NCBI GenBank assembly: GCA_029432795.1
Contig: JARNMJ010000012.1
Coordinates: forward strand, 1 to 64,000
Origin: Pontiellaceae bacterium B12219
Lineage (GTDB): Bacteria > Verrucomicrobiota > Kiritimatiellia > Kiritimatiellales > Pontiellaceae
Length of the DNA stretch: 64,000 nucleotides
Direction of reading: 5' to 3'
Shown here: piece by piece, positions 15,574-18,579 of the stretch
How positions within the stretch are numbered: the stretch's first letter is position 1
Layout: each line of letters opens with the position of its first letter
Made by a program: the position numbers and the translations under genes
Notes under the pieces: model-generated
Told to the model about the DNA's origin: nothing
What the model saw: the letters and a program-made list of their open reading frames with translations, nothing else
Database searches by the model: none

Positions 15574-17712
15574 ATGCCTATTCCTGACACCATAAATAGA
15601 GGGATAGCGTCCTCGCTGTCCGCGGATACCGAGGACGGCATCCCTCCAAAAAGAAAGTGTATCGCCTTTCTCGGAACCGGCTCGGATGTCGGCAAGAGCA
15701 TTGTGGTCACTGCCATCGGCCGGATTTTTAAAAACCGCGGCTATTCCGTTGCTCCGTATAAAGCACAGAACATGTCGAACAATTCCTACGTCACATTGGA
15801 AGGCGGAGAAATGGGCCGAGCCCAGGTGGTTCAGGCTGAAGCCTGCGGCGTTGAGCCGCATACCGACATGAACCCTGTTCTGCTGAAACCCAACACCGAT
15901 ATCGGCGCTCAGGTCGTACTGCAGGGTCACGCCATCGGCAATGCATTGGCCGCCGACTATTTTAAAGACACCTCCAAAATCCGCGAGCCCGCCTTCCAAT
16001 CCTTGGAAAAATTAAAAGCCGCCCATGATCTGATTGTTATCGAAGGTGCAGGCTCGTGTGCCGAAGTCAATCTGCGCTCGCGCGACTTCGTGAATTTTGA
16101 AACCGCCCATGCCGCCAACGCTCCGGTTATTCTGGTGGCCGATATTGACCGCGGCGGCGTCTTCGCACAGTTGATTGGTACATTGAATGTGATCCCGGAA
16201 ACGGACCGGAAACGCGTCGCCGGATTCATCATTAACAAATTTCGCGGAGATCCTTCTTTGTTCGACGACGGCATCCGGTATCTGGAAAAAGAAACCGGCC
16301 TACCGGTGCTTGGCCTGATTCCCTACTTCCGGCATATCGAAATTGATTCCGAAGACGGTCTTCCATTGGAAACCGTTATCGATCCCCCCGAAAATCCAAG
16401 GGCTGGAAAAATAAACATCGCCGTGATTCGGCTTCCCCATATTTCAAATTTTACCGACTTCAATCCGCTGATTCGAAACGAGAACGTGCGTTTCCACTAT
16501 CTTTCCAAACCCCGGAATCTGCAGGACTACGATACCCTGATCCTGCCTGGCACTAAAAATGTTCGTTTCGATCTTCAGTGGCTGAAGAATGAAGGCTGGC
16601 AAAACAAAATTAAAAACTTCACCGGTCGCATCCTCGGCATCTGCGGCGGATATCAAATGCTCGGAAAAACAGTTGAAGATCCGCTCGGCATTGAAGGGAA
16701 TCCCGGAACGTCGGAAGGGCTGGGACTGCTCGATATTGAAACCGTACTTGCAGAAAACAAAGTCCTCTCCCGCTCACAAGGTCAACTGGCCGACGGCACC
16801 CGGATCGACGGCTACGAAATTCACATGGGCCGAACCAGACTCGGCCCGGAAGCATTGCCGATGGTGCAGGTTGAATCGAGAAACCATGAACTCGTCGCCG
16901 ATACCGACGGCGCGGCTTCCAAAGATTGGAAAATCATGGGCTCCTATTTCCACGGACTGTTCGACTTCCCCGATTTCCGAAACACCTACCTGAAAATGAT
17001 CAACCCCGACTATCCAGCCGAAGATGCACTGGCCGCGGCCGAATTCAAGGAAACGCAATACGATCTGCTCGCCGACCATTTCGAACAGCATCTCGATATG
17101 ACCCAACTTGAACAAATTGTGTTCGGAAATATTGGCGGGTCGGGTTCCACCCCGACTTGCGCACAAACGGATTCCCCTGAAGACCGGGTGGAACCGGTCG
17201 CTCCAGTTATCCATCGCAAACACCCCGCGCACTTTCCGCCAATCGAACATCACAACACCCCGACCATCATTTTCCTCACAGTTTGTTCCAAGGATCGGAA
17301 GCCCGTTTTCAATACAGACCAAATGCACATGCTTCTGAGAAAAGCGTGGAAAACGGCCGATACGTGGCTGGTCGGCAAATATATGATCATGCCCGACCAT
17401 ATTCATCTGTTCTGCTCTCCCCGGGATCGTGAGGTCTCCCTGAACACCTGGGTATCCTATTGGAAGTCGCTGATCTCTCGATCATTACGGGGGCATGGCA
17501 TCCTATCCTCCGTCAGCCCGGGTGGAACCGGGCCCTCCAGTTCGCAACTTTTCCAACGCGATTTCTGGGACACCCAATTGCGGAGAGGCGAGCACTACTC
17601 AGAAAAATGGGCTTATGTCCGAGATAATCCCGTTCGGGCCAAATTCGTTGCAACGGCTGAAAACTGGCCCTTCCAAGGCGAACTGAATACACTGATCTGG
17701 CTCAATCAATAA
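15574..17712 (+). CDS. cobQ: Cobyric acid synthase fused to a REP-associated tyrosine transposase
   Basis: A single 712-codon frame with two unrelated parts. Residues about 27-520 are CobQ, the glutamine-dependent amidase of corrin side chains. They comprise the P-loop-like GTGSDVGKS, PYKAQNMSNNS and DIDRGGVFAQLIG, then a glutaminase domain with nucleophile region GICGGYQMLG and histidine GYEIHMG. Residues about 545-712 are a Y1 HUH transposase of the REP-associated class: IMPDHIHLF supplies the two metal histidines and YVRDNPVRAKF the catalytic tyrosine. The CobQ stop codon is missing because a REP-bounded unit begins right after LEQIVFGNIGG. GTG at 17188 could start the transposase alone, but it has no good ribosome site. 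The N-terminal 26 codons include another palindrome, with no downstream in-frame start. Confidence 0.88.
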   Translation: MPIPDTINRGIASSLSADTEDGIPPKRKCIAFLGTGSDVGKSIVVTAIGRIFKNRGYSVAPYKAQNMSNNSYVTLEGGEMGRAQVVQAEACGVEPHTDMNPVLLKPNTDIGAQVVLQGHAIGNALAADYFKDTSKIREPAFQSLEKLKAAHDLIVIEGAGSCAEVNLRSRDFVNFETAHAANAPVILVADIDRGGVFAQLIGTLNVIPETDRKRVAGFIINKFRGDPSLFDDGIRYLEKETGLPVLGLIPYFRHIEIDSEDGLPLETVIDPPENPRAGKINIAVIRLPHISNFTDFNPLIRNENVRFHYLSKPRNLQDYDTLILPGTKNVRFDLQWLKNEGWQNKIKNFTGRILGICGGYQMLGKTVEDPLGIEGNPGTSEGLGLLDIETVLAENKVLSRSQGQLADGTRIDGYEIHMGRTRLGPEALPMVQVESRNHELVADTDGAASKDWKIMGSYFHGLFDFPDFRNTYLKMINPDYPAEDALAAAEFKETQYDLLADHFEQHLDMTQLEQIVFGNIGGSGSTPTCAQTDSPEDRVEPVAPVIHRKHPAHFPPIEHHNTPTIIFLTVCSKDRKPVFNTDQMHMLLRKAWKTADTWLVGKYMIMPDHIHLFCSPRDREVSLNTWVSYWKSLISRSLRGHGILSSVSPGGTGPSSSQLFQRDFWDTQLRRGEHYSEKWAYVRDNPVRAKFVATAENWPFQGELNTLIWLNQ
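15599..15646. repeat. 48-bp REP-like composite palindrome in the first codons of cobQ
   Basis: Arms GAGGGAT/ATCCCTC and GTCCTCG/CGAGGAC are separated by three partly unpaired bases and enclose TCCGCGGA. It is translated in frame as extra residues before the CobQ P-loop. Confidence 0.7.
15994..16008. repeat. Dispersed palindrome TTCCA-N5-TGGAA
   Basis: Exact copy TTCCAATCCTTGGAA in cobQ, read in frame as FQSLE. A one-mismatch copy lies at 16394-16408. Confidence 0.9.
17107..17118. repeat. Left copy of a 12-bp direct repeat flanking the transposase unit
   Basis: CTTGAACAAATT, repeated exactly at 17761-17772 outside the right REP-like hairpin. Confidence 0.6.
17133..17163. repeat. REP-like hairpin, left flank of the transposase
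   Basis: A 31-base element starting TGGCGGGTCGGG and ending GACTTGCGCA, with stem GTCGGG/CCCGAC around TTCCAC. It is identical base for base to 17713-17743. Confidence 0.85.
17182..17199. repeat. Internal REP-like hairpin
   Basis: GACCGG-GTGGAA-CCGGTC, a six-base stem with the same loop sequence, on the opposite strand, as the flanking REPs. Confidence 0.6.
17516..17533. repeat. Internal REP-like hairpin within the transposase coding sequence
   Basis: GCCCGG-GTGGAA-CCGGGC, translated as part of a linker (SPGGTGPS) between the HUH and tyrosine regions. Confidence 0.6.
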
Positions 17713-17743
17713 TGGCGGGTCGGGTTCCACCCCGACTTGCGCA
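17713..17743. repeat. REP-like hairpin, right flank of the transposase
   Basis: Identical 31-base copy of 17133-17163, exactly 580 bases away, immediately after the fused stop codon. Confidence 0.85.
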
Positions 17744-17760: not shown

Positions 17761-17772
17761 CTTGAACAAATT
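17761..17772. repeat. Right copy of a 12-bp direct repeat flanking the transposase unit
   Basis: CTTGAACAAATT, identical to 17107-17118 and in the same reading register (LEQI). Confidence 0.6.
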
Positions 17773-17787
17773 CAGTATGATTCCTCC

Positions 17788-18579
17788 ATGAATTTAATTG
17801 ATGAAAAAGAACAGATGCTGCTCGATGAACTTCGCTCCTACGGCGCGATTGCCGTCGCCTATTCCGGCGGCGTGGACTCCACCTATTTAGCCGACTGCGC
17901 GCATGAAGTGCTCGGACAAAATGCCATGATGGTTATTGCCGATTCCCCCTCCATTCCTCGCGGCGAACTCCAGCAAGCCATCGACATGGCCACTGAACGG
18001 GGGTGGAATTTGCGGATTATTCAAACCGAAGAACATCTGAAAGACGAATATCTCGAAAATAAGGGCGACCGCTGTTTCCACTGTAAAAACGAATTGTTCA
18101 CCAAGATGGAAACCATCCTCTCCGAATTCGGCGATATTGTGCTGGCGCACGGTGCCATTGAGGATGACAAGGGCGATGTTCGTCCCGGCACACAGGCCGC
18201 GGCAAACCATTGTGTGATTGCCCCGTTGCAGAATGCCGGTCTTTACAAAAAAGAGATTCGCATCCTGAGCGAACGGCGAGGACTTCCAACCGCAGGAAAA
18301 GCATCGTTCGCCTGCCTCGGATCGCGCTTCCCCACCGGAACCCGGATTGAACTCGAAGCCATGACGCAGGTGGAAAAAGCCGAGGCCATTTTGAGGGCTC
18401 GCGGATACCGCCAATATCGAATCCGCCATCACGATGATCTTTGCCGCATTGAGATTGATCAGGCCGATTTTGACAAACTCATGAACGAACGGATTGAAAT
18501 TGTCAGCGCCATCAAAAAGGCCGGCTATAAATTCGTGACCCTCGATCTCAGCGGCTATTCCATGGGCTCGAGTGCGTAG
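17788..18579 (+). CDS. larE: ATP-dependent sacrificial sulfur transferase LarE family protein
   Basis: A 263-residue PP-loop ATPase of the LarE family, which adds sulfur to a nicotinic acid-derived precursor in making the nickel-pincer cofactor. The PP-loop AVAYSGGVDSTYLAD is near residue 20, and CFHCKNELF and ASFACLGSRFPTGT fit the family; the CxxC near residue 100 suggests a cysteine-rich subtype. ATG at 17788 is chosen because the longer frame from TTG 17737 would begin inside the REP element. No other lar genes are in the window, so the cofactor pathway is inferred. It converges with the next gene. Confidence 0.85.
   Translation: MNLIDEKEQMLLDELRSYGAIAVAYSGGVDSTYLADCAHEVLGQNAMMVIADSPSIPRGELQQAIDMATERGWNLRIIQTEEHLKDEYLENKGDRCFHCKNELFTKMETILSEFGDIVLAHGAIEDDKGDVRPGTQAAANHCVIAPLQNAGLYKKEIRILSERRGLPTAGKASFACLGSRFPTGTRIELEAMTQVEKAEAILRARGYRQYRIRHHDDLCRIEIDQADFDKLMNERIEIVSAIKKAGYKFVTLDLSGYSMGSSA

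Follow-up and report, generated by a model that had tools for sequence, protein, structure and literature searches.

A REP-associated transposase domain carried in frame behind cobyric acid synthase, probably as one translated protein, in Pontiella-type bacteria

Pontiellaceae bacterium B12219 is a Pontiella-type marine bacterium, and a 64,000-nucleotide stretch of its genome (GenBank assembly GCA_029432795.1, contig JARNMJ010000012.1, positions 1 to 64,000; hereafter the window) carries a single open reading frame (ORF) in which the vitamin B12 enzyme CobQ, cobyric acid synthase, is followed by a REP-associated tyrosine transposase (RAYT, or TnpA-REP; REP, repetitive extragenic palindrome). 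An earlier note on this sequence had described one uninterrupted frame encoding a complete CobQ and then a Y1 HUH transposase, and both statements held; translation gave 712 residues without a stop, and both domains are intact. The fusion is conserved in a second genome, the RAYTs at this locus form a single clade under purifying selection, no internal start codon is conserved, and another relative has the REP without the RAYT. A CobQ-linker-RAYT chimera is probably read from the cobQ start, with the RAYT expressed through cobQ, the arrangement having arisen from insertion of a REP-flanked RAYT gene. We infer that the chimera is the actual product, because the frame is conserved and because of the AlaRS fusions described below; both of its activities would presumably work, and the course of events is a proposed one.

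Both domains of the fused reading frame are complete

The CobQ part scored 625 bits against the NCBIfam model PRK00784.1 (cut-off 273; residues 29-515) and 478 bits against TIGR00313; both equivalog models were above their cut-offs, and the P-loop (LGTGSDVGKS) and the glutamine amidotransferase Cys and His (in GICGGYQ and GSYFHGLF) are present. Pfam reported CbiA, GATase_3 and a weak Y1_Tnp match (20 bits, under Pfam's 23). The NCBIfam model REP_Tyr_transpos matched residues 563-700 with 84.0 bits against a curated cut-off of 80, covering profile positions 9-145 of 146. The motifs IMPDHIHLF and YVRDNPVRAK of the earlier note were both found; the HUH motif lies in MPDHIHLF and the catalytic tyrosine in WAYVRDNPVRAK, Tyr681 corresponding to Tyr115 of PDB entry 4ER8.

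When the RAYT domain was modelled alone, from a 42-row alignment, the mean predicted local distance difference test score (pLDDT) was 88.5, and the main low-confidence loop, leaving aside the two ends of the domain, was the REP-coded stretch. The top PDB match of the model was 4ER8, the REP-bound E. coli RAYT (E 2.7e-8), in agreement with a Y1 HUH fold. The domain is not a multicopy, autonomous IS200/IS605-type element: it is present in single copy, and the next RAYT in the same genome is 50% identical. We infer that the fused RAYT is a domesticated DNA-cutting transposase, predicted to be an HUH nuclease acting on its own REPs.

REPs form the junction and flank the RAYT

As the earlier note had stated, a 31-base REP lies at the junction and an identical copy follows the stop (Table 1); its sequence is TGGCGGGTCGGGTTCCACCCCGACTTGCGCA. 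Because this REP is free of stops in all six frames, it would permit read-through from CobQ into the RAYT: the ribosome would pass from CobQ via a flexible, REP-encoded linker into the RAYT and yield a single protein, and CobQ, being complete up to its own C-terminus, would tolerate such an extension.

Table 1. Features of the fused reading frame and its surroundings (window coordinates)
Feature	Position	Strand	Basis or remark
Fused CobQ-RAYT ORF	15574..17712	+	712 codons plus TAA; stop-free on translation
CobQ (cobyric acid synthase) part, residues 29-515, complete	15658..17118	+	PRK00784.1 and alignment with unfused CobQs
REP copy 1, 31 bases, at junction; predicted hairpin	17133..17163	+	exact repeat
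Linker, 26 residues, GGSGSTPTCAQTDSPEDRVEPVAPVI	17134..17211	+	encoded by REP and inverted REP
Inverted REP, REPIN-like pair with REP copy 1; contains GTG 17188	17182..17205	-	repeat search
RAYT (TnpA-REP) domain, residues 547-712	17212..17709	+	NCBIfam match, motifs, model, PDB match
HUH motif (His609, Ile610, His611)	17398..17406	+	motif alignment
Inverted REP lying in frame inside the RAYT, after the HUH motif and before Tyr; modelled as a surface loop of low confidence	17516..17539	-	
Catalytic Tyr681	17614..17616	+	aligned with E. coli TnpA-REP Tyr115 (PMC8266576)
REP copy 2, same 31 bases as copy 1, directly follows TAA stop	17713..17743	+	exact repeat
larE	17788..18579	+	TIGR00268, 287.7 bits

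The window contains the REP-like pattern three times, where 0.02 occurrences would be expected, and the hairpins fold, though not strongly beyond shuffled sequences (z -0.7 to -1.8). Across genomes (G000 is that of the window, and the other G numbers are comparison genomes), REP matches with at most one mismatch numbered 14 in G000, 78 in G005, 4 in G023, 14 in G001 and 6 in G016, with none in G013, G041 or G024; a reversed-pattern control gave 0 in both G000 and G005. A large share of the G005 matches belongs to a second REP type. This abundant type, TGGAGGGCGAGGTTCCATCCGAGC (e.g. C1:1465617-1465640), often occurs as same-orientation series with copies hundreds of bases apart.

As in RAYT systems generally, the fused RAYT has on either side a REP that is repeated in the genome, and the RAYT stop codons of G000, G005 and G023 all adjoin a 3' REP (TRATGG[AC]GG). 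The 5' tag of the REP is conserved and reads TGGAGG rather than the GTAG of known RAYT systems; according to PMC8266576, GTAG is the most frequent tag, not a universal one.

The fusion is conserved at the same locus in a relative

Among 43 genomes of the order, a CobQ is present in eight of the same genus, the window's included, and these CobQs are all more than 70% identical. In G005 (8.7 Mb in 6 contigs) the same fusion occupies one frame, 682 residues from the first ATG, with 79% identity to the window in CobQ and 66% in the RAYT. Its linker, GGTGSTPSPRP, has 11 residues against 26 in the window; both are in frame, and they share only the REP-coded start GG.GSTP (the G005 linker is spanned by the peptide around IVGGTGSTPSPRPHR). 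A sister RAYT in G023, 67% identical, starts at the edge of its contig and directly precedes larE; cobQ of G023 was not found, and a CobQ-RAYT fusion is likely there.

The comparison with strains lacking the insertion, which the earlier note had called for, separated further states of the locus. G001 has the REP without a RAYT: its CobQ ends in the tail GGSGSTPTCA with TGA as the stop, and the sequence to each side corresponds to that of the window. G016, G024 and G041 have neither REP nor RAYT, and cobQ leads straight to larE; plain CobQ ends were also seen in G013 and G018. larE is directly downstream in all fused relatives and in several unfused ones. The earlier note had held that the insertion removed the cobQ stop codon. 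The stop is indeed displaced, perhaps by the REP and not by the RAYT gene, because the REP alone already extends CobQ in G001.

An assembly artefact was ruled out by the same fusion in G005. A chance open frame was ruled out by the G005 conservation, by selection, and by the linker-plus-RAYT stretch being open in one given frame in only 6 of 2000 first-order random sequences.

The RAYT is under purifying selection and belongs to one clade

The RAYTs of G000, G005 and G023 are 66-67% identical in amino acids and 33-43% identical at fourfold sites. The ratio of nonsynonymous to synonymous change (dN/dS, by NG86) was about 0.13-0.14 for the RAYT pairs with G023, where computable, and 0.10 for CobQ between G000 and G005, values that are rough, since synonymous sites are near saturation; purifying selection acts on the RAYT and on CobQ to a similar degree. 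The three CobQ-linked RAYTs form one clade (SH-aLRT, the Shimodaira-Hasegawa-like approximate likelihood ratio test, 95), of which no member was found at another locus. In the CobQ tree one group joins G000, G001 and G016 and another joins G005 and G013, at moderate support.

These data fit best with a single insertion in an ancestor and several later losses. A REP-flanked RAYT gene (REPtron) would have landed at the extreme 3' end of cobQ, on its original stop codon or just beside it, in a common ancestor of two or more Pontiella-type lineages. The RAYT, having no conserved start of its own, would have been expressed only through cobQ, and purifying selection would have kept it as a working HUH nuclease on its REPs; in some lineages it would have been deleted with a REP-coded tail left behind, the REP of G001 being such a scar. 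The history may also have run with the REP arriving first, with repeated insertion or with exchange of the locus.

RAYTs are carried in frame by other host enzymes

ThiD is followed by a RAYT in one frame in four species, 4 of 28 genus genomes (G021, L025; G017, L026; G006, L028; G043, L092). These RAYTs are a clade separate from the CobQ-fused ones (SH-aLRT 99). The ThiD and RAYT domains are conserved, with dN of 0.12-0.21, and the linker evolves faster, at a dN/dS of roughly 0.2-0.6, still in frame. In G007 (L254) the ThiD tail is REP-coded, another REP follows shortly after the stop, and there is no RAYT, which resembles the state of G001.

Within alanyl-tRNA synthetase (AlaRS), ahead of the editing part, three species, G076 (L083), G177 (L086) and G187 (L110), carry a RAYT whose HUH and Tyr motifs are intact, and these RAYTs form one clade (SH-aLRT 98). 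Each of the three genomes yielded only a single alaS locus; because the cell needs the enzyme, the RAYT within it must be translated. Elsewhere the AlaRS site holds other or shorter inserts (G131, G181, G048) or almost none (G005, G021).

Single in-frame cases, one genome each, involve RdgB (G076, L082), MmeI (G121, L077), HsdR (G065, L088), an SNF2 helicase (G275, L087), 5-FTHF cyclo-ligase with the RAYT N-terminal to it (G032, L084) and a low-molecular-weight phosphatase-like (LMWPc) protein (G087, L078, a locus with masked stretches). Long open frames at L075, L076 and L080 were rejected as fusions, since no host domain was seen; they are probably chance frames. No further clear host fusion was present among 80 RAYT loci of named genomes, judged by eye without Pfam, so that RAYT-host fusions are a minority.

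In G025 and G026 (L019:1441-1448; L021), which carry close relatives of the window RAYT, the RAYT ATG overlaps the stop of the upstream gene by 8 bases; that gene is GtrA-like, a name we assume from the sequence type. The overlap suggests translational coupling, another way to borrow the translation of a host gene. Whether Kiritimatiellia RAYTs constitute a host-embedded transposase class, long-lived translated domains at the end of or within host enzymes and expressed via the host gene, we rate as an even proposition. If they do, a RAYT internal to an essential gene would be shielded from decay, as a frameshift or nonsense change would destroy the enzyme too.

Alternative explanations

Several observations weigh against a conserved chimera of single origin. 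Full-length CobQ-RAYT occurs in only two of the eight cobQ-bearing genomes of the genus, most relatives being without it; the dN/dS values are rough, as noted; a separate RAYT could in principle start from ATGs within the final helix of CobQ (codon 509 of the window; codons 489 and 493 of G005); and the CobQ tree is weakly resolved, which leaves transfer or repeated insertion as competitors of a single insertion with several losses.

Related RAYTs may have inserted independently, with the cobQ end as a hot spot, a history that would leave the same product and that we consider unlikely while still credible. Relative to G005, the REP of the window starts four codons further on, each REP lying at the CobQ end of its own lineage, and G013, sister of G005 in the CobQ tree, is without the fusion; insertion sequences are known to target REPs (PMC1525189). 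Independent events fit less well with the shared REP phase of the two fusions and with a single RAYT clade confined, as far as found, to this locus.

That the RAYT is mainly a separate protein from an internal start, the open frame being incidental, we regard as improbable. The helix ATGs are candidate starts, a weak AGG precedes codon 493 of G005, and the overlapping RAYTs of G025 and G026 are coupled but separate. The LDM-motif ATG, however, is also present in several unfused CobQs and is therefore no dedicated start. GTG 17188, which the earlier note had offered as separating the parts, is codon 539 within the inverted REP; it has no Shine-Dalgarno sequence within the preceding 20 bases and no counterpart in G005, where no in-frame ATG, GTG or TTG occurs between codon 493, in the last CobQ helix, and codon 529, in the RAYT core, and it was ruled out as a conserved start. 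Linkers of differing length have remained in frame and stop-free; no in-frame ATG, GTG or TTG lies between the ThiD GHGPM motif and the RAYT in G017 or G006; and an internal start would not explain a frame open on either side of the RAYT in AlaRS.

The earlier note had also allowed that the fusion is processed. Cutting of the chimera by a protease into CobQ and RAYT is very improbable: the linker, from its composition, is likely unstructured, but no evident site was found in it, the window and G005 linkers are alike only in GG.GSTP, and the Pfam and NCBIfam matches included no intein-like or self-cleaving domain. Translation of a tolerated fusion, another of its options, is favoured by the same fusion in G005. 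A recent neutral accident or decaying element, open by chance, is scarcely credible: the identity of the window's two 31-base REPs would be consistent with gene conversion or a recent event, whereas the fusion shared with G005, the single RAYT clade, the retained catalytic residues and a dN/dS well below 1 all count against it.

Relation to known systems

Fusions of host and transposase exist in eukaryotes, as in SETMAR, where a transposase domain was captured in a host protein. The present case differs in being bacterial and of HUH type, in being joined to a cofactor-synthesis enzyme and in seemingly being kept together with its own REPs. RAYTs are domesticated transposases (PMC8266576), and the fused domain resembles E. 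coli TnpA-REP (4ER8) in its HUH motif, single catalytic Tyr, fold, REP flanks, low copy number and housekeeping-like conservation; known RAYTs, however, are separate genes with their own start, whereas this one forms the C-terminal portion of a metabolic enzyme.

REPs inside RAYT genes with the frame kept are known from TnpA-REP subclass 2.4 (Quentin et al. 2018; available text of PMC6006769), whose in-frame REPs between HUH and Y recur in G000, G005 and G023; the same text describes no conserved host fusion, and mentions that unusually long proteins were excluded as fusions or errors of annotation. In-frame REPs within genes, like Rickettsia palindromic elements, are likewise known (PMC3733652): palindromes are translated in genes for known proteins, comparable to the CobQ tail of G001, but as a short palindrome and not a whole transposase. 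Searches of the open-licence literature gave no report of a RAYT kept by conservation as an in-frame portion of a metabolic or essential enzyme, and the novelty of a conserved RAYT-enzyme fusion is provisional.

These fusions bear on the persistence of RAYTs that are single-copy and do not proliferate: translation solely within a needed enzyme would give a RAYT a direct mechanism for its expression and, in AlaRS, for its retention. Such RAYTs may be missed or dismissed as mis-annotations; the fusions provide cultured candidates for proteomics. No sign of a functional link between CobQ chemistry and REP processing was seen.

Neighbouring features

Upstream of the fused ORF lies a BtuF-, BtuD- and BtuC-like gene set, assigned by Pfam and gene order. 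No cobalamin riboswitch was found in the window, where Rfam gave two tRNAs only. The sequence CTTGAACAAATT occurs at 17107-17118, at the end of cobQ, and again at 17761-17772 past the second REP; the repeat is probably due to chance, and G001 has a similar downstream stretch without a RAYT.
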